From Chlorobiaceae bacterium (GTDB lineage Bacteria; Bacteroidota; Ignavibacteria; UBA10030; SZUA-254), in assembly GCA_013824245.1 (NCBI GenBank), contig PNNN01000049.1, positions 121,068 to 185,067 of the forward strand: DNA of 64,000 nucleotides. The letters run 5' to 3'. Below the pieces are notes generated by a model that saw nothing but the letters and a program-made list of their open reading frames with translations, was not told the origin of the DNA and searched no databases. Below are positions 12,046-61,599 of this stretch, piece after piece. A program made the position numbers and the translations under genes. Each line of letters opens with the position of its first letter. Within the stretch, counting starts at the first letter, position 1.

Positions 12046-12209
12046 AAAAATACGCAAGCTGGGAAGGAGTTCTACTCCTGACCCAAGGAGAGCAGGGATT
12101 TGATTTTGTGTCTTTTTCATCATACATTAACGCTGAAATTATAGAAGAACAAGTTGAATAAGAAAATAGCAATCTCACTGCCTGTATGTTAGCACGACAT
12201 AGGGCAGTA

Positions 12210-12225
12210 TAATTAATAGTTAGGT
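12210..12225 (+). other. attC-right-end-like box (tAATTAATAGTTAGGT)
   Basis: GTTAGGT matches the GTTRRRY core; shares TATAATTAATAGTTAGG with 20169-20185 and AATTAATAGTTAGG with 34419-34433. Confidence 0.5.
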
Positions 12226-12292
12226 TGCGATTTGGAAAAATTAAATATTTTTTTCTAAAGAAGAGTTTTTAGTAACAGAGAAGGAGAATTAA

Positions 12293-13639
12293 ATGAGAAT
12301 ATCACGTATTTCTATCAAAGGTCTATTCGGAATATTTACACACGAAATTGGCTTGAAATCTGACGAGCGCATTACAATTATTCATGGACCTAATGGCGTA
12401 GGCAAAACAGTGATTCTAACCATGATCAATTCATTCTTTTGTGGGCGTTATGGTATTTTTCAGAGCATCCCATTCGAAGAATTTTCGATAGCATTTGATG
12501 ATGGTAGAATCCTTAATCTTAAAAAGATTCCAAGGCCGACTGACCCAAACCTGCCACCTCACAAACGTCAGGATGATTTAATATTGGAATTTCATACGGA
12601 AGGTTCTAAGCCTTTATCATATCCTCTTAAACCTTTGCAAGATATTAGGCTTCAAATGCCTGTACAGATGATAGAACAAGTTATCCCTGGACTAGAAAGT
12701 ATTGGTCCAGCTACTTGGCATTATTTACCAACACAAGAAATCTTATCTATCGAGGATATTGTAGAACGATTTGGGGATAGACTACCTATTGAGAGACGTC
12801 CTAAAGAAACACAACCAGAATGGCTTTCTGAAATTAAAAAGGGCATTAGTGTAAAATTTATAGAAACTCAGCGTTTGCTAACATATTCAAAGATTAGAAG
12901 ACAAAGAGAATTCGAAGATAAACCTTCAATGATTCCTGCTGTACGAACCTATTCTGAAGAACTTGCTACAATGATTCAATCAAAGTTAGCTGAATATGCT
13001 TCGCTTGCTCAATCCTTGGATCGATCATTTCCGACACGACTCGTGAAAGGCTCTGGTACAATTCATTCAACAATCGATCAGCTTAGAAACGATCTCAATT
13101 CACTCGAAGAAAAGCGAGCACGATTAGAAATTGCAGGTCTTCTAGACAGAGATCCAGATGTTGACTTTCGAGAATTTCTCAATATAGATGCTAATAATAG
13201 TTTTGTTTTATCAGTTTATATCGATGACGTAAAAAAGAAATTGGCTGTGTTTGATGAATTGTCTAATAAAATTGATCTCTTAGTTAAAATTATCAATAAT
13301 CGTTTTCTATTCAAAGAAATGTCAATAAGCAAGAAAGATGGTTTCGTATTTAAAGCATCAAATGATAAAAAAGTTCCAACAGCAAGTCTCTCCTCTGGTG
13401 AACAGCATGAGCTTGTATTATTCTATGAATTACTATTCAAGGTAAAACCTTCGTCGCTTATTCTTATAGATGAACCAGAATTATCATTACACGTTGGTTG
13501 GCAACAACAGTTTCTAAATGACATAGAGGATATAACAAAATTGACAGGTTTTCATATCCTTATAGCTACACATTCACCTCAAATAATTCATGACCGTTGG
13601 GATATTACTGTAGAGCTTAAGGGGCCACAGAATGCTTAG
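12293..13639 (+). CDS. AAA/ABC-type ATPase, AriA-like (PARIS) defence ATPase
   Basis: Walker A GPNGVGKT, signature LSSGEQHELVLFYELLF, Walker B SSLILIDEPELSLH, H-loop ILIATHSPQII; overlaps a DUF4435 gene. Confidence 0.85.
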   Translation: MRISRISIKGLFGIFTHEIGLKSDERITIIHGPNGVGKTVILTMINSFFCGRYGIFQSIPFEEFSIAFDDGRILNLKKIPRPTDPNLPPHKRQDDLILEFHTEGSKPLSYPLKPLQDIRLQMPVQMIEQVIPGLESIGPATWHYLPTQEILSIEDIVERFGDRLPIERRPKETQPEWLSEIKKGISVKFIETQRLLTYSKIRRQREFEDKPSMIPAVRTYSEELATMIQSKLAEYASLAQSLDRSFPTRLVKGSGTIHSTIDQLRNDLNSLEEKRARLEIAGLLDRDPDVDFREFLNIDANNSFVLSVYIDDVKKKLAVFDELSNKIDLLVKIINNRFLFKEMSISKKDGFVFKASNDKKVPTASLSSGEQHELVLFYELLFKVKPSSLILIDEPELSLHVGWQQQFLNDIEDITKLTGFHILIATHSPQIIHDRWDITVELKGPQNA

Positions 13640-14483
13640 TTGTTTGACAGCAAACGATATCGCAAACACTGTACGCCTAACGCGGACAACATTTGCTGGG
13701 GCAATCGTAATTACTGAGGGTGGTACAGATATTAGGGTGTATGAGCGTTTTCTTAACAAACCTCGTTGTCGGTTCATACCTTCGAACGGTAAGCCCAATG
13801 CAGTAAAAGCCACTTTAATACTTGATGGTGAAAACTTCGCAGGGCTGTTAACAATTGTAGACGCTGATTTTGACTATTTAGAATCGATTACTCCTCCAAG
13901 CCCAAATATTCTTTTCACTGATACACATGATCTCGATACGATGCTTTTAGGTTCATCATCACTTGATAAAGTTTTGAGCGAACTATTATCTATCCCAAAA
14001 GCGAAGAGCATGCCTGCTCCTATTCTTACTCTTGCCTTTCAAGCAGCATTACCGGTAGGCTATTTTCGATGGATTTCATCGCCACATAAAGATAACTTAG
14101 GTCTGAAATTCAAAGGTATTGTTTTTGCTAATTTTGTTACAACTCCATCTTTTACTACAAATGTTGATGATATGATCAACGAAGTTACGAGGGTTACAGG
14201 TTCTTGTTCAATTGATGTTACAAATATTAAAGCACAGCTTGCGACTCTCAATTCCGGCTCTTTTGACAAATGGCAGGTTTGTTCTGGACACGATTTGGTT
14301 GAGTTGCTTTATTTGGCTCTGAAGATACACTGGGGTAATCATCGCTTATTATCAATTACATCTGATATCTTTGCTGCAATGCTTCGGATGGCTTATGAGT
14401 ATTCTGATTTTAAGTCTAGTAATCTATTTCGCCAAATATTAGCCTGGCAAACAAATAATGCTTCATTTCAAGTCATACAGTAG
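13632..14483 (+). CDS. DUF4435 (TOPRIM-like) protein, AriB-like
   Basis: ITEGGTDIRVYERFL...NGKPNAV..., LLTIVDADFDYLES, ILFTDTHDLDTMLLGS; 8-bp overlap with the upstream ATPase. Confidence 0.82.
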   Translation: MLSCLTANDIANTVRLTRTTFAGAIVITEGGTDIRVYERFLNKPRCRFIPSNGKPNAVKATLILDGENFAGLLTIVDADFDYLESITPPSPNILFTDTHDLDTMLLGSSSLDKVLSELLSIPKAKSMPAPILTLAFQAALPVGYFRWISSPHKDNLGLKFKGIVFANFVTTPSFTTNVDDMINEVTRVTGSCSIDVTNIKAQLATLNSGSFDKWQVCSGHDLVELLYLALKIHWGNHRLLSITSDIFAAMLRMAYEYSDFKSSNLFRQILAWQTNNASFQVIQ

Positions 14484-14513
14484 ATTAATTATATACATCA
14501 CTCGGCAAAACGC

Positions 14514-14581
14514 AACCTAACCAACAGCTCAAGCTGACGGAATGATCGCACTGCAATTTGCATGGCTGGCAACGGTTTAGA
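14514..14581 (+). other. attC-left-end-like element downstream of the ATPase/DUF4435 pair
   Basis: aaCCTAACCAACAGCTCAAGCTGACGGAATGA...gctggcaacggtttag; near-identical to 34954-34982. Confidence 0.5.
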
Positions 14582-14601
14582 ATAAATTTGAAAGCTAAAG
14601 G

Positions 14602-15576
14602 ATGGATAATAAAATGAAAGCTATAGTTTATCATAAATATGGATCACCCGATGTTCTTGAATTAAAAGAGGTAGAAAAACCTACTCCAAAGGATGATGAA
14701 GTCTTGGTAAAAATTCATGCGGCATCCCTGAATGCATATGACTGGCATGTCATGAGAGGTAAACCGTTCTTGGTGCGCCTAATGGGCTTTGGGTTTCTGA
14801 AACCAAAAAAACAAATCCTCGGAGCTGACATGGCGGGGCGGGTTGAAGCGGTTGGCAGAAACGTAAAACGGTTTCAGCCGGATGATGAGGTATTCGGGAC
14901 CATATCGGGCAGTTTTGCCGAGTATGTATGTGCTCGTGAAAAATATCTGGCGTTGAAACCGGCAAATATGTCGTTCGAGGAAGCAGCGGCTGTACCTATG
15001 GCGGCAATCACCGCCCTGCAGGGTCTTCGCGACAAAGGACAGATTCAGCCAGGGCAAAAGGTCTTGATCAATGGTGCGTCTGGTGGTGTTGGTACGTTCG
15101 CTGTGCAGATTGCCAAATCGTTCGGGGTTGAAGTGACTGCCGTGTGCAGCACAAGGAATTTGGACAAGGCGCGCTCGATTGGCGCTGATCAGGTCATTGA
15201 TTATACTCAAGAAGATTTCACCAAAAATGGGCAGCGGTATGACCTGATTCTTGTTGCTAACGGACATCAATCGATTTTAGATTACAAGCGTGCATTAAGT
15301 CCCAAGGGAATTTGTGTCATAGCCGGAGGAGGTTCCATGACTCAAATGTTCCAAGCCATGCTGTTAGGACCATTGATATCAAAGACCGGGAGTAGGAAAA
15401 TGTATAACATGCTGGCGAAACTAAACCAGAAAGATTTGGTCTTTCTAAAAGAGCTTCTTGAAGCCGGCAAAGTAGTACCTGTTATAGACAGACGTTATCC
15501 GTTTAGTGAGGTTCCTGAAGCTCTCCGGTACCTTGAAGAAGGACATGCCCGAGGGAAAGTTGTTATCACACTGTAG
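14602..15576 (+). CDS. NAD(P)-dependent alcohol dehydrogenase / quinone oxidoreductase (MDR family)
   Basis: MKAIVYHKYGSPDVLELKEVEKPTPKDDEVLVKIHAASLNAYDWHVMRG..., VLINGASGGVGTFAVQIAKSFG. Confidence 0.93.
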   Translation: MDNKMKAIVYHKYGSPDVLELKEVEKPTPKDDEVLVKIHAASLNAYDWHVMRGKPFLVRLMGFGFLKPKKQILGADMAGRVEAVGRNVKRFQPDDEVFGTISGSFAEYVCAREKYLALKPANMSFEEAAAVPMAAITALQGLRDKGQIQPGQKVLINGASGGVGTFAVQIAKSFGVEVTAVCSTRNLDKARSIGADQVIDYTQEDFTKNGQRYDLILVANGHQSILDYKRALSPKGICVIAGGGSMTQMFQAMLLGPLISKTGSRKMYNMLAKLNQKDLVFLKELLEAGKVVPVIDRRYPFSEVPEALRYLEEGHARGKVVITL

Positions 15577-15696
15577 TGCCGCTGCTTAATCAGCGGCTCA
15601 ATCTGAATATCTAGACATCTAAGTTATTCCTACCCGATTTTGTTTTATCTTCTATTCTGCTTAATTTAAATCAAAGTTTACTATATGAAGATATAT

Positions 15697-15764
15697 TTCA
15701 CGAAGGAACACGAAGAAAAAGATTTCACGAAGAACCACGAAGCTTTTCCGTGATCTTCGTGTAA
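15697..15764. repeat. CACGAAG hairpin repeat
   Basis: ttcacgaaggaacacgaag...cacgaagaaccacgaag...ccgtgatcttcgtgtaa. Confidence 0.7.
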
Positions 15765-15783
15765 CAAAACAAAGGAGGGGAAT

Positions 15784-16155
15784 ATGGAGTTTGAATCGTT
15801 ATCGAAGGATGTCCTTGGCGCCGCGATAGAAGTTCATAAACATCTGGGACCTGGGTTGCTGGAGTCTGCATATGAAGAATGTCTATCCTACGAATTGATG
15901 CAATGGGGATATAAGATTGAGCGACAGAAACCGATTCCTGTAGTGTACAAAGAAATTAAGTTGGAGTGTGGATACAGAATCGATATCCTCGTTGAAGATA
16001 AAATTGTATTGGAATTAAAATCGGTAGATTGCTTTAATCCGGTTCATGAAGCGCAGATACTGACTTACATGAAATTTGCTCAAAAGAAAGTCGGGTTGTT
16101 GATCAATTTCAATGTTGCGCTTCTGAAGAATGGTATTAAACGGTATGTGCTTTAG
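15784..16155 (+). CDS. GxxExxY protein (TIGR04256-type)
   Basis: GPGLLESAYEECLSYEL, PVVYKEIKLECGYRIDILVEDKIVLELKSV. Confidence 0.92.
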   Translation: MEFESLSKDVLGAAIEVHKHLGPGLLESAYEECLSYELMQWGYKIERQKPIPVVYKEIKLECGYRIDILVEDKIVLELKSVDCFNPVHEAQILTYMKFAQKKVGLLINFNVALLKNGIKRYVL

Positions 16156-16173
16156 TTATATGATAAAATCATT

Positions 16174-16195
16174 ACACGAAGGGGCACGAAGAAAA
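16174..16195. repeat. CACGAAG half-repeat
   Basis: acacgaaggggcacgaagaaaa directly after the GxxExxY gene. Confidence 0.55.
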
Positions 16196-19984: not shown

Positions 19985-20122
19985 ATGGAAGTAACCGAAA
20001 ATAAATCTCAATTACTTGATCAGATGAGGGTAATAGATTTAGAGAATTCTTCGTGCGGCACTGGGAAAAAACTTACACGAAGAAACACGAAGGAATACAA
20101 AGAACCACGAAGAGATAAAAAC
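19985..20122 (+). pseudogene. Possible 5' remnant of an integron-type tyrosine recombinase gene
   Basis: ATG frame MEVTENKSQLLDQMRVIDLENSS...; ...QLLDQxR resembles the start of integron/phage integrases; a similar copy lies at 34139. Confidence 0.35.
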
Positions 20123-20131
20123 TTCGTGAAA
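20074..20131. repeat. CACGAAG hairpin repeat
   Basis: acacgaagaaacacgaaggaatacaaagaaccacgaag...aacttcgtga. Confidence 0.6.
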
Positions 20132-20144
20132 TAAAAAATATGTT

Positions 20145-20185
20145 CCTAACGATATACAACCGTGTAGTATAATTAATAGTTAGGT
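20145..20185 (+). other. attC-like element: CCTAAC ... GTTAGGT
   Basis: cctaacgatatacaaccgtgtagtataattaatagttaggt; inverted CCTAAC/GTTAGG ends with imperfect inner pairing. Confidence 0.45.
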
Positions 20186-20221
20186 AGCCACAAATAAATA
20201 TCATTGGAATGGAGGATTGTT

Positions 20222-20647
20222 ATGTTTAAATCATTTTTGTCAATTCGTAACATGATTGTCTCGTTAATACTCCTCGTAGCTTGTTGCATACTCGGCTTTG
20301 CTGCTTCTGCTGTCGGTATTGACGACAATCCATCTGGCATAGCACTTGCGTTTCTTTCTACCATTGCATTGGTTCTCGCTTTCGTCCATCCATTGAGAAC
20401 CTCAAAGCAGTTCCGTTATCTCATATACGCGTCAGGCATAGGATTAATTATTTTTGCCGTTCTTCACAACGTGTTTGAGGGCATAGCCTCGAAGGTAGGG
20501 GAAGCAAACCTATCTTATGGTTTACTCCAAGGTGCTGGTGTTGCATTCTTTTTTATCGCCATTTTGGTTTGCCCAATTGGTTTGTTGGTCGGTGCAATTG
20601 GTGCTGCTATCACTTCCAGTCGGGAGGGTCGTTCGAAAAAAATGTGA
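20222..20647 (+). CDS. Hypothetical membrane protein
   Basis: MFKSFLSIRNMIVSLILLVACCILG..., four TM segments. Confidence 0.6.
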   Translation: MFKSFLSIRNMIVSLILLVACCILGFAASAVGIDDNPSGIALAFLSTIALVLAFVHPLRTSKQFRYLIYASGIGLIIFAVLHNVFEGIASKVGEANLSYGLLQGAGVAFFFIAILVCPIGLLVGAIGAAITSSREGRSKKM

Positions 20648-20698: not shown

Positions 20699-21181
20699 AT
20701 GACAGAAATATATCGCAGTATAAATATTGAAGCACCGGTAAATAAAGTTTTTGAGTATGCTTCTAACTATCAAAAATGGCCAGAGTTTTTCGAGGGAGTC
20801 TCCGACGTTAAGCCGGTAACCGAAACAATCCGCGGAAATGGGGCCAAATTTATTTACAAAGTAAAAGTATTAGGTATGAGGGTTGCTGTAGGAACTGAGA
20901 TTCAACAATTCAAAGAAAATGAAGGTTGGATTGGAAAATCATTCAAAGGTTTAGAGCATCAGACTCAGTGGATTTTTGAGAAGTTAAATGGTAATACAAA
21001 GTTTACATTTATCCAAAATTATAAATTCCCGTTGTATTTTGGAGGAAAGATCATTGATAAAATGTTTGCACAGCATGAATGGATTAAGATAATTGAAAAT
21101 TCACTGCAAAACCTAAAAAGAATAATGGAACAAAAAAACAATAATATGTTTTTGCAAAGTTCAAAGGCAGATGCAAAGTAA
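20699..21181 (+). CDS. SRPBCC-family (polyketide cyclase/dehydrase-like) protein
   Basis: IYRSINIEAPVNKVFEYASNYQKWPEFFEGVSDVKPV. Confidence 0.85.
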   Translation: MTEIYRSINIEAPVNKVFEYASNYQKWPEFFEGVSDVKPVTETIRGNGAKFIYKVKVLGMRVAVGTEIQQFKENEGWIGKSFKGLEHQTQWIFEKLNGNTKFTFIQNYKFPLYFGGKIIDKMFAQHEWIKIIENSLQNLKRIMEQKNNNMFLQSSKADAK

Positions 21182-21263: not shown

Positions 21264-21632
21264 ATGCATTTCTCAAATAATCTCCCTTTTCAAATATTTA
21301 GTATTATTACAATCGTTCTGGGAATCCTTGTGGCTTCGTTTCTGCTGCTCATTGGGGTGGTAGAACTTATTGATCCACATGTACCCGACAACTACTTAAA
21401 CCAGAACACACGCGTTTGCATAATGGTAATTCTAACCGGACTGGTTACGATATATGCGATATTTCGCCCTTACTCTGGTGGTATCTTGTTGTGCATTTGT
21501 GCCCTGGTTTTCTTCGTCATTGTCATTAATAATCCAATATTCATTCCTATCATTCTATTTGGTATTCTGTCGATTGTTCGTGGTTATTTTAATCGACGGA
21601 AAGTCTTGAAAGGAACAGATCAGACTTCGTGA
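21264..21632 (+). CDS. Hypothetical membrane protein
   Basis: 122 aa with several TM segments. Confidence 0.55.
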   Translation: MHFSNNLPFQIFSIITIVLGILVASFLLLIGVVELIDPHVPDNYLNQNTRVCIMVILTGLVTIYAIFRPYSGGILLCICALVFFVIVINNPIFIPIILFGILSIVRGYFNRRKVLKGTDQTS

Positions 21633-21710
21633 AGGAGTTCTCTACGAGTTTACGGACTCGAAGAGCCGTAGACTACTCCTGACCTACAGAAGACCCATAA
21701 AAAAAATAAT

Positions 21711-21801
21711 TTCACGAAGTACCACGAAGCAAAAAAAATATCACGAAGAACCACGAAGAATCTCAGTGGAACTTCGTGTCTTCTCCGTGATCTTCGTGTA
21801 A
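21711..21801. repeat. CACGAAG hairpin repeat
   Basis: ttcacgaagtaccacgaag...atcacgaagaaccacgaag...cttcgtgtcttctccgtgatcttcgtgtaa. Confidence 0.7.
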
Positions 21802-33786: not shown

Positions 33787-33967
33787 TGTGAAAAATACGA
33801 ATGTTTTATATCAATCTCAAAAAGAGATATTTGGCCAACCTTTTCGATGCGATTTCAAAGATTTAAGCGTTTTCTCACTTTCAATGGATGAAAACTTTTA
33901 ACTTTTCCATCAAGCCGGGGAAAAGTCCTGCTCCTGACCTACAGAAACACCCATGAAAAAAAATAAT

Positions 33968-34061
33968 TTCACGAAGTGCCACGAAGCATAAAAAATAATA
34001 TCACGAAGAACCACGAAGAACCTCAGTGGAACTTCGTGTCTTCTCCGTGAGCTTCGTGTAA
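33968..34061. repeat. CACGAAG hairpin repeat
   Basis: Near-identical to 21711-21801, including preceding 'ctcctgacctacagaa'. Confidence 0.7.
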
Positions 34062-34138
34062 TAAACGCAGGCGAGAGGTGATTTGATTTTGCCTTTTATT
34101 AATAATATGATAACGCTAAGTTTAAAACGGTTTATATT

Positions 34139-34195
34139 ATGAAAGTAACAAAAAATAATCCTCAATTACTTGATCATATGAGTATAATAAAATAA
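34139..34195 (+). pseudogene. Possible 5' remnant of an integron-type tyrosine recombinase gene (second copy)
   Basis: MKVTKNNPQLLDHMSIIK*; homologous tract to 19955-20100. Confidence 0.35.
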
Positions 34196-34228
34196 GGAAA
34201 ATCCTTCGTGCGGCTCTTGTAAAAAACT

Positions 34229-34310
34229 TACACGAAGAAACATGAAGGAATACGAAGAACCACGAAGAATCTCAGTGGAACTTCGTGTCTTCTCCGTGAG
34301 CTTCGTGTAA
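34229..34310. repeat. CACGAAG hairpin repeat
   Basis: cacgaagaaacatgaaggaatacgaagaaccacgaagaatctcagtggaacttcgtgtcttctccgtgagcttcgtgtaa. Confidence 0.7.
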
Positions 34311-34395
34311 TAAACACAGGCGAGAGGGATTTGATTTCTTTTCTTTTTTATGATACATTCTCACTGTGTTTAATTCTAAATATTTGGCAGTTTTA

Positions 34396-34433
34396 TCCGC
34401 CATTCTTTACGGCGGAATAATTAATAGTTAGGC
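34396..34433 (+). other. attC-right-end-like box with hairpin (ccgccattctttacggcgg...AATTAATAGTTAGGC)
   Basis: GTTAGGC core and AATTAATAGTTAGG shared with 12211-12224 and 20171-20184. Confidence 0.5.
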
Positions 34434-34456
34434 GGAAAAATTAGAAAGGAGCGTAT

Positions 34457-34957
34457 ATGGCAACTGGACGTAGCAATCAGCTGATCAAACAAGTTGGTGA
34501 ATATCTTGTTGCCTGTGAGCTTGCCCGAAGGGGTCTTCTTGTCGCGACTTTCTCAGGCAACGTCCCAGATTTCGATCTAATCGCTACCGATTTCAAGGGA
34601 TCATCATGCCCAATTCAGGTCAAGACAATCAAAGGCGGTGCTTGGCAATTCTCGATTGAGAAATTTGCTGACATTACTTTCGAAGGAAACAAGCAGCTTA
34701 TTGGGGCCAAGAAGCCATTGTCGATTTCGCACCTTGTTTGTGTCTTTGTTCTTGCTGCTGAGAAATACGGCGAGGATCAATTCTTCGTTCTTGAATGGTC
34801 ACAGGTTCAAGATATACTAATCGCAAATTACACGAGCTGGCTCGACTCTCATGGCGGAGTGAGACCTAGAAAGCCTGATTCTCTACATTGTTCCATCGTC
34901 CAATCCAATTTGCTAGATCACAAAGACAATTGGTCCATAATTACTGGTAGGCTCTAA
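34457..34957 (+). CDS. PD-(D/E)xK-like nuclease-fold protein in a cassette-like setting
   Basis: VGEYLVACELARRGLLVATFSGNVPDFDLIATDFKGSSCPIQVKTIKGG: E, PDFD, QVK motif series. Confidence 0.7.
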   Translation: MATGRSNQLIKQVGEYLVACELARRGLLVATFSGNVPDFDLIATDFKGSSCPIQVKTIKGGAWQFSIEKFADITFEGNKQLIGAKKPLSISHLVCVFVLAAEKYGEDQFFVLEWSQVQDILIANYTSWLDSHGGVRPRKPDSLHCSIVQSNLLDHKDNWSIITGRL

Positions 34958-34999
34958 CCAGCAGCTCAAGCTGACGGAATGAGCGTAGGTGCGTTAAGT
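34952..34999 (+). other. attC-like element (CTCTAACCAGCAGCTCAAGCTGACGG...GTTAAGT)
   Basis: Stop codon of the preceding gene (34955-34957) lies inside the CTAAC core; GTTAAGT at 34993-34999 fits GTTRRRY. Confidence 0.55.
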
Positions 35000-35051
35000 G
35001 GCACATGGATAAAATCAAATATTTTTGCACAAATTATTTTATGAGGACATC

Positions 35052-35303
35052 ATGCCAACACCCGAAGAAGCGCAAAACAAAGAACTCGACCGTAAACTCA
35101 GCGCTCTCAATAATAATTCTGAATATTATAACAGTATGTCAATTTTTCGTATTCTCTCGGATAGACTAATAGAATCGCTAAATAAAAACGCATCGTCTGC
35201 CAATAGATTATCTTGTACGCTTATTTGGCTTAACGTAATTATGACCATAGGTACTCTTGTTGCAGTGTGGATCGCTGTTATGATGTTTTTGAGGCCACAT
35301 TAA
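35052..35303 (+). CDS. Small protein with one C-terminal TM segment
   Basis: MPTPEEAQNKELDRKLSALNNN...LNVIMTIGTLVAVWIAVMMFL. Confidence 0.55.
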   Translation: MPTPEEAQNKELDRKLSALNNNSEYYNSMSIFRILSDRLIESLNKNASSANRLSCTLIWLNVIMTIGTLVAVWIAVMMFLRPH

Positions 35304-35323
35304 ATTATCTATAAGGGAAACAC

Positions 35324-35941
35324 ATGAAATCACAAAGGTGTCAACCCATGGCCAGTCCGTCCCATGCTGACTATCTAAAACTTCTCGGTTTGATATCTGT
35401 AAGGATGTCCAACATTGAAACCCACATGAGGAACTTCATCAGTGAGATGATTAGCGACGACTATGAACTCAATGTTCGTATTATGGCAGGTAATTCTTTC
35501 ACCGATCTCTTGAGATTGTTGAAATCAGTATTTCCATACCGGGTGTCAGAAAAAAAAGTCTTGCAACAATTCGATGCACTTGCTATCGATCTCAGTAACC
35601 TCAATGACGAGAGAGCGAAGTACATACATTCTGATTGGACGCTGGGAGATGTTGACGGTATTGCAGTCGCAAAGCGGATGAAAGTCTCGAGACATAAAAG
35701 AGGGCTTCGAGTAGACCTGAAGCAGAATGAATTCGAGTTACTCCAAGACTTTCTTGATAAAGTAGAGGTCGTAATTGAGAAACTCACACAACTCAAAGTT
35801 GTGAGCATGCCCATCTACATCGCACATAGAGCCGAAACCGCTAAGAAGCCTTATATGGCATGGGACAAGGATGGGTTCCCAATACGAACTCCCATAAATA
35901 AAACTATCCCGAAGCGTCCCTCAGTTGTGGGGCATTCGTAA
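35324..35941 (+). CDS. Hypothetical helical protein with HEPN-like RxxxxH motif
   Basis: MSNIETHMRNFISEM...LNDERAKYIHSDWTLG. Confidence 0.6.
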   Translation: MKSQRCQPMASPSHADYLKLLGLISVRMSNIETHMRNFISEMISDDYELNVRIMAGNSFTDLLRLLKSVFPYRVSEKKVLQQFDALAIDLSNLNDERAKYIHSDWTLGDVDGIAVAKRMKVSRHKRGLRVDLKQNEFELLQDFLDKVEVVIEKLTQLKVVSMPIYIAHRAETAKKPYMAWDKDGFPIRTPINKTIPKRPSVVGHS

Positions 35942-36066
35942 TAAGCAGATTAAAAATTGAAAGTGAAGTGAATTAACTTGTTTCGTTTGGGACATTTTAA
36001 AAGTTATCAGTACCGCAACTTAGCGGCCATCTGTAAGGTCTCTTCCATGCGAAACTTAGAACAACA

Positions 36067-36597
36067 ATGGTAGACGAAGAAACAATAGATCTCGAGTTCT
36101 ATAAATGGATTTCCCGAAGTCATCTTCTGTATCTCAAACGCCTTAGACTCTTGGGCCATAAGATCGATAATAAGAGAATCGAGACGCTTGAAAAAGAAAT
36201 GTACTCAGAGCTGGATCAGCCTGAGAACCAAGGCGGAGGATTGCTTGGGCAAAGAGACGTAGATGAGTTGCAGTTATTGTTTTCAATTGCTGAAGAGCAA
36301 CCTGCTGTGCGTGCATCTATCAAGGTTAATCTTTGCCAATATGATCACACAGTACTCAGGATGCATCCTGATCACAACCACAAACGCCCGCACTTTCACA
36401 TAGAGTATAAGCAACAATACAAAGCATCTTATTCGATTGATCCATTGGAAAGATTAGCAGGTCATGTACCGGCTCAATACGAAAAGCCCATTCTGGATTG
36501 GGCTTCAACACGTTTGCGAGAATTGAAGCTCACTTGGGATAAATTAAAGTCGGGAGAAGATGTACGGGAATTGGTACTGATAGCGGAAGAGTTCTAA
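36067..36597 (+). CDS. DUF4160-domain protein
   Basis: HPDHNHKRPHFHIEYKQQYKASYSID...LAGHVPAQYEKPILDWA. Confidence 0.65.
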   Translation: MVDEETIDLEFYKWISRSHLLYLKRLRLLGHKIDNKRIETLEKEMYSELDQPENQGGGLLGQRDVDELQLLFSIAEEQPAVRASIKVNLCQYDHTVLRMHPDHNHKRPHFHIEYKQQYKASYSIDPLERLAGHVPAQYEKPILDWASTRLRELKLTWDKLKSGEDVRELVLIAEEF

Positions 36598-36660
36598 ACA
36601 GCAGCTCGTGCTGACCCCGCTTAAAAACGTAGCGGTGCAGGCGGTCTGAGTCCCTCGAAA
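36593..36660 (+). other. Degenerate attC-like element
   Basis: tctaaacAGCAGCTCgtGCTGACcccgcttaaaaacgtagcgg...; stop codon 36595-36597 within it. Confidence 0.4.
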
Positions 36661-36759
36661 AACACTCGGCATAAACTCAAGTACATTTGTCAATCCTACC
36701 CCAAATTTTGTTTTATGAGCGATTATGCGTAATTTAATACCGTAAATATCTCCAGTGAT

Positions 36760-37179
36760 GTGAAAATAAATCGAATAAATATTAATTCAATCAAGAAGAA
36801 ACTTATTCCTTTTTTCAAAAGTCAAGTAGATGTAAGATTGGCATTCCTGTTTGGCTCGGTAGCAGAAAAAAGAACTCACAGCCAGAGCGATATAGATATT
36901 GCTGTATATTATGTGGGAAAAGCAACGTTAAACCGGCACGTCCGGTTAATAAATGATGTCGGTTATTTGTTAGAGACGGATAACATAGATGTAGTAAATA
37001 TGAACACAGCTTCTACTTTTATTTTACACGATATTCTTTCTTTCGGGAATCTGCTTATTTGCAAAGATGATGATCTTTATAAAGGGCTTCGATTGAAAAC
37101 TCTTAGAGATTTTGATGATTTAACTCATATCATCAAGATACAAAGCCAGTATATTTTTAAAGGCGCAACAAATGGTTAA
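36760..37179 (+). CDS. MNT-type nucleotidyltransferase (MntA-like antitoxin)
   Basis: VRLAFLFGSVAEKRTHSQSDIDIAVYY: GSxA...DID nucleotidyltransferase motif. Confidence 0.85.
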   Translation: MKINRININSIKKKLIPFFKSQVDVRLAFLFGSVAEKRTHSQSDIDIAVYYVGKATLNRHVRLINDVGYLLETDNIDVVNMNTASTFILHDILSFGNLLICKDDDLYKGLRLKTLRDFDDLTHIIKIQSQYIFKGATNG

Positions 37180-37219
37180 ATCTGAGTTTATTATCACGAT
37201 GCTCAAACGCAAATATTGA
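37172..37219 (+). pseudogene. Truncated remnant at the expected position of a HepT toxin gene
   Basis: MVKSEFIITMLKRKY* overlapping the MNT stop codon; no longer ORF follows. Confidence 0.4.
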
Positions 37220-37228
37220 GAATATATA

Positions 37229-37510
37229 ATGTTTGGAAGAATCCTGAATCGGATGCGTGAAAAAGTCAGAACACGCCAATACATAATGACTTTACACGCT
37301 GAGGAAGAAATGAATAACGATGGTTTATCGATTTACGATGTTGAACACGTGATACTTACTGGAAAAATTGTCGAGAGACAAAAAGACCCGATCACTGCCG
37401 AATAGAAGTATCTGATACAAGGCAGTTCTCTGGCTGATGGCAGAGTAATTGTAGCTGCAAAATTGAGTCCAACAGGGAAATTGGTTATCTTAACTGTGTA
37501 CACTCGATAA
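37229..37510 (+). pseudogene. DUF4258-type toxin gene with in-frame TAG
   Basis: MFGRILNRMREKVRTRQYIMTLHAEEEMNNDGLSIYDVEHVILTGKIVERQKDPITAE*KYLIQGSSLADGRVIVAAKLSPTGKLVILTVYTR; stop at 37403-37405. Confidence 0.82.
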
Positions 37511-37522
37511 AAAGGAAAATAT

Positions 37523-37750
37523 ATGACATGTGATATTTGCAATAAAAAGGGTGCTCGGCTTCGGCACATAACCAAAAGTTATGGAAAAGGGTCAAGCTTA
37601 TTCATTATTGAAAATGTTCCGGTGATAAGTTGCCCCAATTGTGGTGAGAGTTATTTGACTGCCGAAACTCTTCATGAACTCGAAAGGATCAAACTGCACA
37701 GAAATAAGATTGCAAGAGAACGCGAAGTACCTGTAGCAATTTTTGCATAA
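37523..37750 (+). CDS. YgiT-type zinc finger protein (MqsA-like antitoxin)
   Basis: CDICNKKGARLRHITKSYGKGSSLFIIENVPVISCPNCGESYLTAETLHELE. Confidence 0.9.
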   Translation: MTCDICNKKGARLRHITKSYGKGSSLFIIENVPVISCPNCGESYLTAETLHELERIKLHRNKIAREREVPVAIFA

Positions 37751-54331: not shown

Positions 54332-54440
54332 GTTATTATCATGTTCTCGAATTCTTCTTTAATGGGAAAAGAGATTTCGATAATAATATTAAGTCGTTTG
54401 ATTCATAAAATTCAACACAACGAAAGGGTTACTATTTCGC

Positions 54441-56606
54441 ATGGAATTATCACTTATCATCGGAATAAGCGTTCTGGGTTTATTATTTGCACTTTATTTG
54501 ATTAGAGATGTGATGCGCCGAGAAACCGGCACAGAGCGCATGCAAGAAATTTCCAACGCAATTAAACAAGGAGCAGAGGCATTCCTCCGTCGGCAAAATA
54601 GAACAATTGTTTTGCTCGCGATTGCACTTGCTCTTCTAATCTACCTTCTTTATGCGTTTGCTCGCACGCCAAATGTGCATGATCCGGCAAGTGCGGCAGA
54701 CCTTGCACTCTGGACAACTTTATCATTCTTGTTCGGCGCGGCATGTTCGGTTGCGGCAGGATATATGGGTATGTGGGTTGCCATCCGAAGTAATATACGC
54801 ACCGCAGCGGCGGCGCGTAATAATATGAACGACGCTTTACAAACAGCGCTTCGTGGCGGCGCAGTTTCAGGTTTCTTTGTTGTAGCTTTGAGCTTGTTGG
54901 GTGTTGCCGGATTGTTCACAATTGTGAAAGCAATCGGTGTTACAGACGATATAACAAAAATACCTTTGCTTATTGTTGGATATGGTTTTGGAGCGAGTTT
55001 CGTGGCGCTCTTTGCGCAATTGGGCGGCGGTATTTTTACGAAGGCGGCAGATGTAGGAGCAGACCTCGTTGGAAAAGTGGAAGCAGGTATTCCCGAAGAC
55101 GATCCCCGCAACCCGGCAGTTATTGCCGACCTTGTTGGCGACAACGTGGGTGATTGCGCTGGTCGCGGTGCAGACCTTTTTGAATCTACTGCCGCAGAAA
55201 ATATTGGCGCAATGATTTTAGCCGCCGGTTTGTACCGGGCGAACACTCAATATTTTATAGATAATGAATTATCGCTTCTTGGTGTTATTCTTTTTCCGCT
55301 CGTTGCTCGTGCGTTTGGTATCATCGCTTCGATTGTCGGAATACTTACAGTGCGGACCGCTGAGAATAAAGACCCGATGAAGGCGCTCAACCGCGGTTAC
55401 TTTGTTACTGCAATATTAGCGATAGTCGGATTCTTCATTGCATCTCAATGGTTGTTGGGCGAAAATTATTTCAACTTCTTTTTAGCAGGCGTGATCGGTG
55501 TTCTCACTTCGGTAGCGTTTGTTTATATCACTCAATATTACACAGAGTACCATTACCGCCCCGTAAAATCTATTGCTGAAGCATCGCAAACCGGACCGGC
55601 AACAAATATCATTTCCGGTATAGCTGTCGGTATGGAATCAACTGGTTATCCGATAATCGTAATCGGCGTTGCTTTGGTCTCCTCATATTTTCTTGGTAAT
55701 TCTTCAGGAATGGTAGACGGCGGATTATTTGGAACGGCAGTAGCGACTATGGGTATGTTAGGAACAGCCGCATACATACTTGCCATGGATACATTCGGTC
55801 CGATTACAGATAATGCAGGCGGCATTGTTGAGATGAGTCAACAGCCAGAAGAAATTCGCAAACGCACAGACCGACTTGATTCGGTTGGCAACACAACTAA
55901 GGCGCTAACAAAAGGATATGCAGTTGGTTCAGCGGCACTGGCGGCATTTTTACTTTTTGGTGCGTACATGGATGAAGTCAAAAATTATATGCCCTCATTT
56001 CAGCCGGTTATTAATCTTAATAAACCGGAAGTATTCGTCGGGGCTATGTTGGGTTCTGTGTTAGTCTATTTGTTTTCATCTCTCGCAATCAAAGCAGTTG
56101 GAAAAGCGGCATACGCAATCATCAACAATGTGCGGGAGCAGTTTAGAAACAATCCGGGAATAATGAAGGGAACATCCAAGCCCGATTACGGACAGTGCGT
56201 TGATATCGCAACTAAAGCCGCGCTTCAAAAAATGGTTTTACCCGGAGTTCTTGTGGTTGGCATGACCGTTGGTGTTGGAATTATTTTTAAATGGTTATAC
56301 TATGCAGGCGGGCAATCGCCGCACGGTGCAAGCGGCGCCGAGGTTATTGGCGGATTCCTGATGTCAGGTACCATCACGGGAATTTTAATGGCGCTCTTCT
56401 TGAATAACAGCGGAGGTGCATGGGACAATGCGAAAAAATATATCGAGACAGGAATGTACGGAGGTAAGAGATCAGATCCGCACAAAGCCGCAGTGGTTGG
56501 TGATACGGTTGGCGATCCGTTCAAAGATACAGCTGGACCATCGCTTCACGTGCTGATTAAATTATTAGCAACCCTCACGTTGGTGTTGGCGCCGTTGTTT
56601 ATTTAG
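54441..56606 (+). CDS. hppA: Membrane-bound proton-translocating pyrophosphatase
   Basis: DVGADLVGKVEAGIPEDDPRNPAVIADLVGDNVGDCAGRGADLFES; GNTTKALTKGYAVGSAALAA. Confidence 0.97.
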   Translation: MELSLIIGISVLGLLFALYLIRDVMRRETGTERMQEISNAIKQGAEAFLRRQNRTIVLLAIALALLIYLLYAFARTPNVHDPASAADLALWTTLSFLFGAACSVAAGYMGMWVAIRSNIRTAAAARNNMNDALQTALRGGAVSGFFVVALSLLGVAGLFTIVKAIGVTDDITKIPLLIVGYGFGASFVALFAQLGGGIFTKAADVGADLVGKVEAGIPEDDPRNPAVIADLVGDNVGDCAGRGADLFESTAAENIGAMILAAGLYRANTQYFIDNELSLLGVILFPLVARAFGIIASIVGILTVRTAENKDPMKALNRGYFVTAILAIVGFFIASQWLLGENYFNFFLAGVIGVLTSVAFVYITQYYTEYHYRPVKSIAEASQTGPATNIISGIAVGMESTGYPIIVIGVALVSSYFLGNSSGMVDGGLFGTAVATMGMLGTAAYILAMDTFGPITDNAGGIVEMSQQPEEIRKRTDRLDSVGNTTKALTKGYAVGSAALAAFLLFGAYMDEVKNYMPSFQPVINLNKPEVFVGAMLGSVLVYLFSSLAIKAVGKAAYAIINNVREQFRNNPGIMKGTSKPDYGQCVDIATKAALQKMVLPGVLVVGMTVGVGIIFKWLYYAGGQSPHGASGAEVIGGFLMSGTITGILMALFLNNSGGAWDNAKKYIETGMYGGKRSDPHKAAVVGDTVGDPFKDTAGPSLHVLIKLLATLTLVLAPLFI

Positions 56607-56808
56607 GTCCAGAGTAAGTAGGTTTTTCCAGAAAAAAGTTTCCTTCTTGATCGTTGAAACCGATGAGAGGGAAACTTTTTATCTTGAATAGATGATAAAA
56701 TTTATTGAGCATAAATATCATAATCCTTGCCTATTTCACAAATTTTTTGTAGATTTAATAAGTTATTTTTGAAAACCTATCATATTTTATCATTTTCAAG
56801 GATTTTTC

Positions 56809-57258
56809 GTGGCTTTAAGACAGAAATTAACACATTCATTCAGGCAGGACGAGGTTTTAAAGAAATGGTTCCTCGTTGATGCTGAGGGACAAACGCTCGG
56901 TCGCCTCGCAAGCCGTATCGCGACTGTACTGCGCGGCAAGAATAAACCACAGTTTACAACTAACGCCGACTGCGGCGATTTCGTAATTGTGGTGAACGCA
57001 GATAAGATAAAGATCGCCGCTAAACGTGAAGAGCTGAAAACTTATTTCCACCATACATTATATCCGGCAGGCGCGACAGTTGAATCGTACAAAGAGCTTA
57101 TGAAAACCAATCCTGAGCGTATTGTAACGATGGCAATTAAAGGAATGATACCGCATAACCGGCTTGGAGTTCAGGTGATAAAAAAATTAAAAGTGTACCG
57201 CGGAACAGAACATCCACATTCGGCACAAAAACCCGAGCCGCTTAAGTTCGGAAAATAA
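56809..57258 (+). CDS. rplM: 50S ribosomal protein L13 (GTG start)
   Basis: KKWFLVDAEGQTLGRLASRIATVLRGKNKPQFTTNADCGDFVIVVNADKI. Confidence 0.97.
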   Translation: MALRQKLTHSFRQDEVLKKWFLVDAEGQTLGRLASRIATVLRGKNKPQFTTNADCGDFVIVVNADKIKIAAKREELKTYFHHTLYPAGATVESYKELMKTNPERIVTMAIKGMIPHNRLGVQVIKKLKVYRGTEHPHSAQKPEPLKFGK

Positions 57259-57349
57259 ATATCAGTTTCGGGATCCGAAATTCTAAACGAATTAGGATTT
57301 AGTAATTAAATAGGTATTCGAAATTAGAAAATAGTATTTAAGGAATAAA

Positions 57350-57739
57350 ATGGTTCATCATAGAATATCAGTCGGCAGGCGTAAGACAGCAGTTGCACGC
57401 GTAATTTTAAAACCCGGTTCGGGAGAAATAAAAATTAACGACATCGCTTTGGAAAAATATTTTCCCATCGAAACATTAAAGACAGATGTGCTTCTTCCAT
57501 TTACCGTTACCGAGTTGCTTGGTAAGTACGATGTGGATGCGATAGTCAACGGCGGCGGATCGAGCGGACAAGCGGGCGCAGTGAAGCTTGGTATATCGCG
57601 CGCTTTAGTCGACCTTAATAATGATTTGCGCGGAAAACTTCGCGAGCATGATTTGCTTACACGCGATTCAAGAATGGTTGAGCGTAAAAAATACGGTCAA
57701 CGCAAAGCACGCAAGAGATTCCAGTTCAGTAAGAGATAA
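57350..57739 (+). CDS. rpsI: 30S ribosomal protein S9
   Basis: SVGRRKTAVARVILKPGSGEIKIN...RKKYGQRKARKRFQFSKR. Confidence 0.97.
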   Translation: MVHHRISVGRRKTAVARVILKPGSGEIKINDIALEKYFPIETLKTDVLLPFTVTELLGKYDVDAIVNGGGSSGQAGAVKLGISRALVDLNNDLRGKLREHDLLTRDSRMVERKKYGQRKARKRFQFSKR

Positions 57740-57745
57740 TCTTTT

Positions 57746-57832
57746 AGTAGATGAGTATATGAGTATTTAAGTAGATGAGATTGAGAAGAAAAATTTACTC
57801 AACTACTCAGATACTAAACTACTCAACTACTT
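57746..57832. repeat. Low-complexity inverted repeat (tagtagatgagtatatgagta... / ...ctcaactactcagatactaaactactcaactac)
   Basis: Opposing degenerate short tandem arrays. Confidence 0.6.
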
Positions 57833-57858
57833 AATAAATCAAACATACTCTCTGATTT

Positions 57859-57894
57859 TGAGGGAAGTGTCCCGTTTCAAATGGGATCCCCTCA
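57859..57894 (+). promoter_or_regulatory. Stem-loop in the rpsB leader
   Basis: tgagggaagtgtcccgtttcaaatgggatcccctca. Confidence 0.4.
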
Positions 57895-57940
57895 GAAGAT
57901 GACGGGAGTAGAAGAAATAACTAACATAAAGGAGTAACAA

Positions 57941-58696
57941 ATGCCACGTATAGAATTAGCCGACCTACTTGATGCAGGCGCTCACTTTGGGCACCTCACA
58001 CGCCGTTGGAACCCCAAGATGAAACCGTTTATTTTTATGGAGAGAAACGGTATACACATCATCGATCTTAAAAAAACTCAAGACCTTTTAGAAGGTGCCG
58101 CAAACGCTCTCGCTAATATTATTGGCGAAGGGAAGAAAGTTCTTTTTGTTGGAACTAAAAGTCAGGCATCGGTAGTGATCGAAGAAGAAGCGAAGAGATG
58201 CGGCGCGTTTTACACATCATCGCGCTGGTTAGGCGGTATGCTGACCAATTTTTCCACAATCAGAAAAAGTGTTAAGCGTCTTCAGAATATTGAGAAGATG
58301 GAAACCGACGGAACTTACGATAAGATAACAAAGAAAGAAGCTTTAGTTTTAGATCGCGAGAAAGAGAAACTCTCGGATGTTCTCTCGGGCGTGGTTGATA
58401 TGACAAGATTGCCGGGCGCTTTGTTTGTTGTTGACATCAAAAAAGAAGAAATTTCGGTGCGTGAAGCAAAGCGATTAGGAATACCGGTATTCGCAATTGT
58501 AGATACGAATTGCGATCCTACATTTGTTGATTATCCGATTCCGGCGAACGATGATGCGATAAAATCAATTCAGGCGATAACCAGAGTTATAGCGGATGCG
58601 GTTCTTGAAGGACAAGAGCGTGTGAGCGCCATGCAGCAAGCCCTTACCGAGCATGAAAAAGAAAAAGCACCCGAGCCGAGACAGAGAAGAAAATAA
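57941..58696 (+). CDS. rpsB: 30S ribosomal protein S2
   Basis: [38 protein letters not shown]. Confidence 0.97.
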
Positions 58697-58734
58697 GTTG
58701 AACAATTTATAAATTGAAGAATAGCGAGATTTAA

Positions 58735-59334
58735 ATGGAAATTACATCAGAACAAGTTAAATTATTACGAGACAAAACAGGCGCAGGGATGATGGACTGC
58801 AAAAAAGCACTTGCAGAATCGAACGGCGATATGGATAAAGCTATCGATTACCTGCGAAAGAAAGGTGCGGCAACCGCGGAGAAGCGGGCTGATCGCGCCA
58901 CAAATCAAGGTGTTATCGAATCATATATCCATGCAGGCGGACGAATCGGTACGATGGTTGAAGTGAATTGCGAAACCGATTTCGTAGCAAAGACGGACGA
59001 CTTCAAAGCATTCGCACGAGAGCTTGCAATGCAGATAGCGGCAATGAATCCGTTATACGTAAGCCGTGAAGATGTTTCAAAAGACATGATTGAACACGAA
59101 TTGGAAATTTACCGCACCCAAGCTAAGAACGAAAAGAAACCCGATCAGGTTGTTAACCGGATTGCCGAAGGTAAGTTGGAGAAGTATTACCAGGAGTTTT
59201 GCCTGACAGAGCAAATCTATATTAAAGATTCAGGAAAAACGATTAAGGATCTTATTCTCGATCTGATGGCAAAGACGGGAGAAAAGATAACAATCCGACG
59301 GTTCAAGCGTTTTCATCTTGGAGAAAATTCATAA
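58735..59334 (+). CDS. tsf: Elongation factor Ts
   Basis: VKLLRDKTGAGMMDCKKALAESNGDMDKAIDYLRKKG, VEVNCETDFVAKTDDFK. Confidence 0.97.
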   Translation: MEITSEQVKLLRDKTGAGMMDCKKALAESNGDMDKAIDYLRKKGAATAEKRADRATNQGVIESYIHAGGRIGTMVEVNCETDFVAKTDDFKAFARELAMQIAAMNPLYVSREDVSKDMIEHELEIYRTQAKNEKKPDQVVNRIAEGKLEKYYQEFCLTEQIYIKDSGKTIKDLILDLMAKTGEKITIRRFKRFHLGENS

Positions 59335-59346
59335 AAACAAAAATTC

Positions 59347-59375
59347 AGGTCTCGCATTCGTGAGACCTTTTTTTT
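59347..59375 (+). terminator. Rho-independent terminator
   Basis: aggtctcgcattcgtgagaccttttttttt-type hairpin plus U tract. Confidence 0.85.
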
Positions 59376-59384
59376 ATATCGACT

Positions 59385-60128
59385 ATGAAAAAAAATAAAC
59401 CGGCATTCAAAAGAATCCTTTTAAAAGTCAGCGGTGAAGCGTTGATGGGCGAAAAAGAGTTCGGAATCGATTCGAATATTCTGAGTAAGTTCGCTTCTGA
59501 GATCGGCGAGATACATAAATACGGCATCGAAATCGGAATCGTTATCGGAGGTGGAAATATTTATCGGGGGGTCGAGAATTCATCCGACGGCGTTGATAAA
59601 GTAACAGGCGATCAGATGGGAATGCTTGCAACAATCATAAACGGACTTGCATTGCAAAGCGCGCTTGAACATCATGGTGTGTTCACGCGGTTAATGAGTC
59701 CCATTAAAATGGAAGAAATGGCAGAACCGTTCATCCGTCGCCGCGCGATCAGACATTTAGAAAAAGGACGTGTTGTAATATTCGGTGCTGGAACAGGCAA
59801 TCCTTATTTCACAACCGATTCTGCCGCCGCTTTAAGAGCGATGGAGATAAATGCAGACGTTATTATTAAAGGCACACGGGTGAACGGAGTTTACGATCGT
59901 GATCCGGAGAAACACAAAAATGCAGTCATGTATCACGAGATATCGTATCAGGATGTGCTTGAAAAAAATCTTAAAGTGATGGACCTTACCGCAATAACAC
60001 TCTGCAAAGAAAACCTTATGCCGATTATAGTTTTTAATTTTAATAAATCCGGAAATTTACAACGGCTTCTGCAAGGACAAAAAGTAGGAACATTTGTTCA
60101 CGCGAAAGCCAAAAAAATTAATAAGTAG
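59385..60128 (+). CDS. pyrH: UMP kinase
   Basis: [50 protein letters not shown]. Confidence 0.97.
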
Positions 60129-60155
60129 ACTTGTCGAACTATTTAAGGAATAAAT

Positions 60156-60713
60156 ATGATAAAAGAAATCATTAAACAAACAGACGACAAGATGCACAAA
60201 GCGGTGGAAGTTGTGCGTCAGGAATTCATAAAGATCAGAACCGGAAAAGCTACTACTGCTCTGCTCGACGGTGTTAAAATCGATTATTACGGACAGCATT
60301 CACCTCTCACCCAGGTTGCTAATGTCAGCGTTAAAGACATTCACACAATCTCTGTTCAACCGTGGGATAAAACAATGCTGCAGCCAATCGAGAAAGCGAT
60401 CATCGCGGCAAATTTAGGTTTGAATCCGATTGTTGATGCAAACGGAATCCGCGTGCCAATACCTCCTTTGAACGAAGAAAGAAGAAAAGAACTAGTAAAG
60501 TTGATAAAGAAGTTTGCCGAAGAAGGCAGAATTGCCGTACGCAACATAAGACGCGATGCTATTGAACATCTGAAGAAGTCTGAGAAGGATGAGCATTTTT
60601 CTGAAGACGAGCGGAAACGTGCGGAACAAGATGTTCAAAAAATGACAGATAAATTTATCAAAGATATTGATGGTTTAATTGTAGTGAAAGAAAAAGAAAT
60701 AATGGAAGTTTAA
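60156..60713 (+). CDS. frr: Ribosome recycling factor
   Basis: MHKAVEVVRQEFIKIRTGKATTALLDGVKIDYYGQ. Confidence 0.97.
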   Translation: MIKEIIKQTDDKMHKAVEVVRQEFIKIRTGKATTALLDGVKIDYYGQHSPLTQVANVSVKDIHTISVQPWDKTMLQPIEKAIIAANLGLNPIVDANGIRVPIPPLNEERRKELVKLIKKFAEEGRIAVRNIRRDAIEHLKKSEKDEHFSEDERKRAEQDVQKMTDKFIKDIDGLIVVKEKEIMEV

Positions 60714-60893
60714 ACAACAAATTTATCGAGTTTCGATAGATGATTATTGAGGTTGGTGCCGATTCGAGATATTGAGTCGGCATTTTGTTTTAATTGAGAT
60801 TGCTCACTACTGCACAAAACACACCAAAATATTCGAAACATTTGGGCAATCTCAAACGTAAAATGATGTAAGCAAAAAAAGAAAGCTGAAAAA

Positions 60894-61589
60894 ATGGAAG
60901 CAAATGGACATATAAACCGACGGCTATACAAATCGCGCCGAAACAAAGTGATAGATGGTGTGTGTGGAGGTATTGCCGAATATTTTGATGTTGACCCGAC
61001 AATAGTGCGCTTGCTCTGGGTGCTTGTTACTTTGATGGGTGGTTCGGGTTTTATATTATACATCGTCGGTATGATTATCATGCCTGTCAATCCTGAACAT
61101 CTGGCGACAACAACAAATCAGATACAACCTGTCAGCCACGGAACGGATAAGAAAAGATTTTTCGGTGTTATGTTGATTCTTGCCGGCGCATTCTTTTTGC
61201 TTCTTAATATCGGTTGGTTCTGGGGCTTTAGTTGGTGGTCTTTCTCACGCTCTGTTCTATTACCAGTTTTGTTGATAATGCTCGGAGTATTTTTCATATA
61301 TATGCAAACCTCGAAAAGAAAAAATCACGCGTCACCCGTTTCAGAAAATGAGACGGAAATGAATTCAGAACCTTTTGTTGAACAACAGAAAGAATTACGA
61401 CGTTCGAGAACCAATCGTAAGTTATTCGGAGTTTGCGGCGGTTTAGCGAATTATTTCGATCTCGATCCAACGCTTGTAAGATTTATTTTTGTCGCGTTGA
61501 TATTTATTTCATTCGGATGGGGTTTACTCATCTACATCATACTTGGCATAATCATGCCTGAAGAAAAATTAATTGAAACATCTGCGTAA
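60894..61589 (+). CDS. Protein with two PspC domains
   Basis: RRNKVIDGVCGGIAEYFDVDPTIVRLLWVL and RTNRKLFGVCGGLANYFDLDPTLVRFIFVA. Confidence 0.92.
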   Translation: MEANGHINRRLYKSRRNKVIDGVCGGIAEYFDVDPTIVRLLWVLVTLMGGSGFILYIVGMIIMPVNPEHLATTTNQIQPVSHGTDKKRFFGVMLILAGAFFLLLNIGWFWGFSWWSFSRSVLLPVLLIMLGVFFIYMQTSKRKNHASPVSENETEMNSEPFVEQQKELRRSRTNRKLFGVCGGLANYFDLDPTLVRFIFVALIFISFGWGLLIYIILGIIMPEEKLIETSA

Positions 61590-61599
61590 GGAAATTATA

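Follow-up and report, generated by a model that had tools for sequence, protein, structure and literature searches.

A degraded cassette array without an integrase, probably seated on an orphan attI, in an Ignavibacteria chromosome

Integrase-free cassette arrays are common, in some genera at conserved positions, and how they are seeded is debated: by the decay of whole integrons, or by insertion of cassettes at attG sites. The same question is raised by positions 34396-36660 of the window, the 64,000-nucleotide stretch of a Chlorobiaceae genome analysed here, where genes stand between attC-like boxes and there is no integrase gene around the locus: what are these boxes, and on what was the array built? 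An earlier sequence-only reading saw integron cassette boundaries, a CALIN-like class and no integrase nearby, and was right on all three. Judging from sequence comparisons with relatives, the segment is very probably a degraded, CALIN-like cassette array seated on an orphan attI.

A long attC family, broken in the window

The box TAAMCAGCAGCTCNNGCTGAC occurs at 34953, 36593 and 14516 in the window, with a weak copy at 15587. The three exact copies (14516 being the third, missed in the sequence-only reading) compare with 0 in 100 shuffles; across the genome (3.23 Mb, 76 contigs) they are the only three, all on the + strand of a single contig, and the reversed control gives 0. Scanning with the relatives' consensus at up to 4 mismatches places the window copies at 14518, 15587, 34955 and 36595, all four on the + strand with 0 on the - strand, against a chance expectation of 0.009 with up to 3 mismatches; each coincides with a gene end or follows one by no more than about 35 bases.

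Arm pairing with covariation, together with extrahelical bases, defines an attC, and the complete sites of the relatives have both. The box is present in 24 of 100 related genomes, with large arrays in one genus; the full site, CCTAACCAGGCGCTCAAGCTGACGG ... CCGCAGCTTAGCGCCGGTCCGTTAGGC, is mostly 154-196 nt long, and intact copies separate unrelated genes in arrays of dozens of cassettes with a single orientation. The inner arms covary (GGCGC/GCGCC, GCGGC/GCCGC, GCAAC/GTTGC, GCGCA/TGCGC), and the RNAalifold consensus of 24 bottom strands from the relatives has 19 pairs, 6 of them changed on both sides, and leaves two bases of the 3' arm unpaired (extrahelical). In the related genome G024 the cassette array adjoins a canonical IntI (442 bits) of divergent orientation. 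The covarying arms, the extrahelical bases and this adjoining integrase identify TAAMCAGCAGCTCNNGCTGAC as the left half (R''-L'') of a long attC, which we call family A. Unusually long attC sites, reaching 233 nt, occur in the large arrays on G052 C61 and on G024 C1 and C7, and in some of these sites the central loop carries additional stem-loops.

Every attC copy in the window is broken, since only separate halves are found (Table 1) and a generic scan for pairs of TAA[CA]/GTTA arms gives a window count not above that of shuffles. The copy at 34954 stops matching after 45 nt (at about 34998), and the matching right half, its R' degenerate (TGTAAGG), lies about 970 bp and two ORFs further downstream. 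For the copy at 36593 no right half was found, and the profile of the relatives' sites does not report it; after the weak remnant at 15587 comes sequence resembling the right flank at 36692. Within 1.7 kb there are pieces of two or three sites, none of them intact; the CALIN class is defined by at least two neighbouring attC sites. An Rfam scan of the segment gave nothing above chance.

These results bear on several claims of the sequence-only reading. The letters it quoted are all present (AATTAATAGTTAGGC, ending at 34434; CTCTAACCAGCAGCTCAAGCTGACGGAATGA, starting at 34952; TCTAAACAGCAGCTCGTGCTGAC, at 36593-36615), and the stop codons do fall inside the attC R'' box: the TAA of the PD-(D/E)xK-like gene at 34955-34957 and the stop of the DUF4160 gene at 36595-36597. 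Both checks that could have refuted that reading turn out in its favour: the relatives show the boxes recurring around unrelated genes, and their attC has a bottom-strand fold with compensatory changes. Its boxes at 34953 and 36593 are indeed attC, as left halves, but the one at 34420 is an attI core (see below); GTTAAGT (34993-34999) was mistaken for the end of the attC, whose only right half lies 1 kb downstream, and the attC sites of the window are fragments.

Table 1. Features of the attI and cassette system in the window (the bar marks the crossover).
Feature	Position	Strand	Evidence and details
Second orphan attI core	12209..12225	+	GGCAGTATAATTAATAG|TTAGGT; predicted crossover between 12219 and 12220
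AriA-like ATPase (12293-13639) and AriB-like protein (13632-14483)	12293..14483	+	PADLOC 1.2e-23 and 1e-23
Left part of family-A attC, shortened (model 1-71)	14516..14585	+	nhmmer E 1e-11
Putative further cassette gene, quinone-reductase-like protein	14602..15576	+	NCBIfam TIGR02824 2.4e-53, below cut-off
Weak left-half attC remnant	15587..15607	+	Profile and consensus scan
Third orphan attI core	20169..20185	+	TAGTATAATTAATAG|TTAGGT; three small genes follow
Small genes after the third core	20204-20647, 20699-21181, 21264-21632
Orphan attI	34396..34434	+	Hairpin TCCGCC (34396-34401)/GGCGGA (34411-34416), core ATAATTAATAG|TTAGGC; predicted crossover between 34427 and 34428
Cassette gene 1, 166-aa PD-(D/E)xK-like protein	34457..34957	+	ORF; motif PDFDLIA..QVK read by eye
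Left part of family-A attC (R''-L'' and following bases, model 2-46)	34953..34998	+	nhmmer E 7.5e-11; exact box
About 970 bp between the two attC parts	34999..35968	+	ORFs 35052-35303 (membrane-like) and 35324-35941 (205 aa)
Right part of family-A attC (L'-R', model 88-157)	35969..36042	+	nhmmer E 1.3e-10 to 1.6e-11, profile match at 35969-36038; R' degenerate
Cassette gene, DUF4160 protein	36067..36597	+	Pfam PF13711 6.8e-10
Left-half attC remnant spanning the stop codon of the DUF4160 gene	36593..36615	+	Exact box and consensus scan
Right flank of the cassette locus, upstream of prfB	36692..36746	+	Common to G006 and G001

How the two parts around the 970 bp came about can be told in two ways, between which we see an even balance. 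The pieces cover non-overlapping portions of the model, as one split site would, and the other account, in which two adjacent attC sites each lost one half and the 83-aa and 205-aa genes form a normal cassette with no insertion into an attC, requires two independent losses; yet the end of the 205-aa gene lies immediately before the right half, where that of a cassette gene is expected, and the arms that remain, GCAGC and GCCGC, pair imperfectly by eye. Nowhere in the arrays retrieved from the relatives do genes separate the halves of an attC, so neither splitting nor half-loss would be a common event, and frequent splitting of attC sites by genes in this group was rejected on that ground. Homologues of the 205-aa protein elsewhere do not adjoin family-A attC.

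Orphan attI sites and the genes behind them

An attI is the docking site of cassettes and normally adjoins the integrase gene of its integron. By its sequence the box at 34396-34434 is an attI and not an attC, because an identical core adjoins intI genes bearing the I2 segment in relatives: in G020 (430 bits) and in Melioribacter nzgw155 an I2-bearing intI ends about 130 bp before ATAATTAATAG|TTA, and the core also closely follows intI in M. roseus FI88 and, with intI reduced to its 3' part, in E14.218. In G023 a near-copy of the core adjoins intI on its divergent side. That the 34396 box might be an attC of the same family was ruled out, as it has no partner arm. The 19-mer GCAGYATAATTAATAGTTA is found at 32 places in 264 Gb of named genomes, the large majority in Ignavibacteria or in metagenome bins with the same leader, and the few elsewhere are about what chance would give (estimate about 4).

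Transcription of the cassettes may start from a promoter in the leader. A promoter and terminator scan of 34000-37000 stayed at shuffle level, with a sigma-70 model that does not extend to the promoters found in this phylum, and for this reason the proposed promoter upstream of attI is drawn from the repeated TTTGATTT...ATACATT leaders.

The attI at 34396 is one of several. Besides the two further cores in the window, the second of which (20169) has no recognisable attC after it, there are copies on two other contigs of the same genome, one exact and two close. The segment of the sequence-only reading, 34396-36660, therein proves part of a larger system, which also takes in 12209-15607 and probably 20169. 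The core ATAATTAATAG|TTAG is present as well in G001, G002, G006, G020, G027, G047 and G071, preceding different genes, and the exact 15-mer core numbers 20 in the relatives versus 2 with the reversed pattern. About ten attI sites have attC profile matches within the next 2.5 kb of the same strand; at many orphan attI sites outside the window no attC is within reach. The genome G047 has seven matches to GCAGYATAATTAATAGTTA and no IntI at E 1e-25. Among the papers that could be searched (subscription literature being outside the scope) we found nothing on such dispersed orphan attI copies, and they appear to be undescribed. Repeats of the form CACGAAGAACCACGAAG...AACTTCGTGT lie between genes at 15695-16195, 20074-20140, 21710-21800 and 33958-34327, often upstream of orphan attI leaders.

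The genes loaded behind these sites are varied. The 166-aa protein of the first cassette has no Pfam, NCBIfam or PADLOC match, and its structure model (pLDDT 43) is too poor for use, while the DUF4160 protein is weakly like the DhiT toxin (NCBIfam toxin_DhiT 1e-8, below the cut-off). Between the orphan core at 12209 and the attC remnant at 14516 stand the AriA-like and AriB-like genes, which are adjacent and overlapping as in PARIS (AriA/AriB); this is a predicted PARIS-type anti-phage pair carried as a cassette, and its place downstream of an orphan attI is what distinguishes it from the known system.

One locus in two genera, with no IntI found

The sister genus represented by G006 has the locus in the same order, with cassettes between a histidine kinase and prfB. 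To the left of the cassettes it matches the window at 91% identity as far as 34432 (G|TTAGG). From there on it carries different genes: a 257-aa gene is followed by a complete attC (E 6e-19), then come a 235-aa gene and an HNH gene, and after them an attC remnant, the flank common with the window, and prfB. A flank so alike up to the attI cut, with different cassettes beyond it, points to cassette exchange at this site. In G001, which belongs to the same genus as the window, the locus takes yet another form. Between the right flank of the array and prfB, at 36760-37750, the window holds an MNT-like nucleotidyltransferase, a DUF4258 ORF interrupted by an in-frame stop and a gene for a YgiT/MqsA-like zinc-finger protein; the G006 locus is without these genes.

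No IntI (TIGR02249) is found at E 1e-90 in the genome of the window, a draft of 76 contigs from which an intI could be missing, and none at this threshold in G001, G002 and G006. A complete integron, with an I2-bearing intI adjoining attI, is found neither in the window nor in its genome (E 1e-90). The locus thereby differs from the complete sedentary integrons of the Ignavibacteriota, with which it otherwise has much in common: the attI core with G020 and nzgw155, and the attC family with G024 and its relatives. From the closest known class, the CALIN as described for IntegronFinder (PMC9024848), with which it shares attC cassettes, the lack of a nearby intI and few, degraded sites, it is set apart by a recognisable attI as its left edge, by several loci per genome and by the fragmentary state of the attC sites in the window.

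Proposed loading and spread of the attI platforms

We propose that an I2-bearing tyrosine integrase, ancestral or acting in trans, would have recombined circular cassettes through the folded bottom strand of attC. Cassettes would have entered attI at G|TTAGGC (34427|34428), bringing the PD-(D/E)xK-like, DUF4160 and other genes, and the same attI would have been used at the same chromosomal place in the sister genus, where other cassettes were loaded. The lineage would now be without such an integrase, having lost it or never having had it in residence. The attC sites have since decayed, one of them split by, or fused around, the stretch of about 970 bp, and others left as half sites. Because attI exists in several dispersed copies free of intI, cassettes would accumulate as small, separate islands.

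Two accounts may explain how the attI copies multiply. That each orphan site is the remainder of a whole integron, duplicated or acquired and then stripped of intI, instead of a copy of attI alone, has a chance only a little short of even. One of the G047 leaders keeps the last codons of intI, encoding GVKSPLD of the IntI C-terminus; the leaders of G071 resemble the spacer between intI and attI in FI88 and G020; and CALINs are usually regarded as degraded integrons, by the authors of IntegronFinder among others, who require two attC (PMC9024848). This short match aside, however, tblastn finds no intI remnant at E<0.1 upstream of orphan attI sites, those of the window included, and up to seven copies in a genome would require seven independent losses. 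Tandem units of attI, gene and attI moreover suggest a different vehicle, namely attI-flanked cassettes: two cores flank one gene in G000:C20:1-3600, in the window's own genome, and in G002:C204:3500-10600. The attI on both sides of the gene recalls the delta-attI cassettes of mobile and class 1 integrons (PMC12901181), from which these units differ in being known from sequence alone and in lying on chromosomes without IntI.

The system in these Ignavibacteriota could also be pictured as a multi-site integron, in which stand-alone attI platforms multiply through the chromosome and are loaded in trans, the loader in the genome of the window being an I2-less integrase on contig 12; we hold this picture to be improbable. 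The idea that orphan attI sites are correlated with the I2-less integrase was unsupported, G020, G047 and G071 having the core without that enzyme. The contig-12 locus (G000:C12, about 54439-62000, outside the window) is an integron-like array with a 313-aa integrase, followed by about seven attC-like sites in the same orientation, far above shuffles. The enzyme is nearest to the integron integrases (TIGR02249, 236 bits against a cut-off of 265; closest PDB chain 2a3v, the recombinase IntI4), but its I2 segment, 33 residues long in 24 of 24 IntI compared, has 3 or 4 in 26 of 26 members of its clade. The clade is present in 34 of 100 relatives searched, and its members mostly precede an attI that appears to be of another type, as a rule TAG|TT with a CATTGCC-like stretch after it. 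I2 is described as docking the extrahelical bases of attC, and its deletion abolishes the function of IntI1 (PMC7790495); the array merits separate study because a segment described as essential for IntI1 is the one reduced here.

Insertion at attG sites shares with the window cassettes outside an integron and the lack of a cis integrase (Loot et al. 2024, as cited in PMC12901181 and PMC12444791), and is established for IntI1 according to the citation in PMC12901181. Applied here, it would have cassettes placed off-target at chance GTT sites, with the likeness of the junctions due to a loose core preference of the integrase. The left junctions do require only G|TT, and leaders of different families diverge beyond about 20-60 nt. 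Yet the 11 bp before the cut are identical at many loci and abut a hairpin arm, three G047 loci have leaders alike over about 140-180 nt, and the same core adjoins intI genes; these intI-linked copies largely refute the explanation, which we consider improbable. As these citing papers present them, attG sites diverge from attI and are widely spread, whereas one attI sequence, conserved in core and leader, recurs here. Xanthomonas CALINs occupy conserved loci away from intI, as opposed to the scattered attG insertions of E. coli experiments (PMC12444791).

Least probable of all is that boxes of the 34420 type belong to a second attC family as its right halves (L'-R'), in an array continuing leftward with lost cassettes: they do end in GTTAGGC with one hairpin arm before it, and G000:C20 and G002:C204 do have TAA and a complementary arm upstream, just after a gene, but upstream of the three sites in the window, and of most of the rest, there is no such TAA partner arm, arrays have these sites at their left edge, and the core adjoins intI in several relatives, where an attI is expected.

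With the array read as seated on an orphan attI, the origin of integrase-free arrays becomes testable, since a recognisable attI is found at their left edge at several loci per genome, and one locus differs in its cassettes between two genera. An attI motif (YNTAATNANTAG|TTA) is gained for a phylum in which current software detects no attI, attI being poorly described outside class 1 (PMC9024848), and a predicted anti-phage gene pair is seen on an orphan attI platform.
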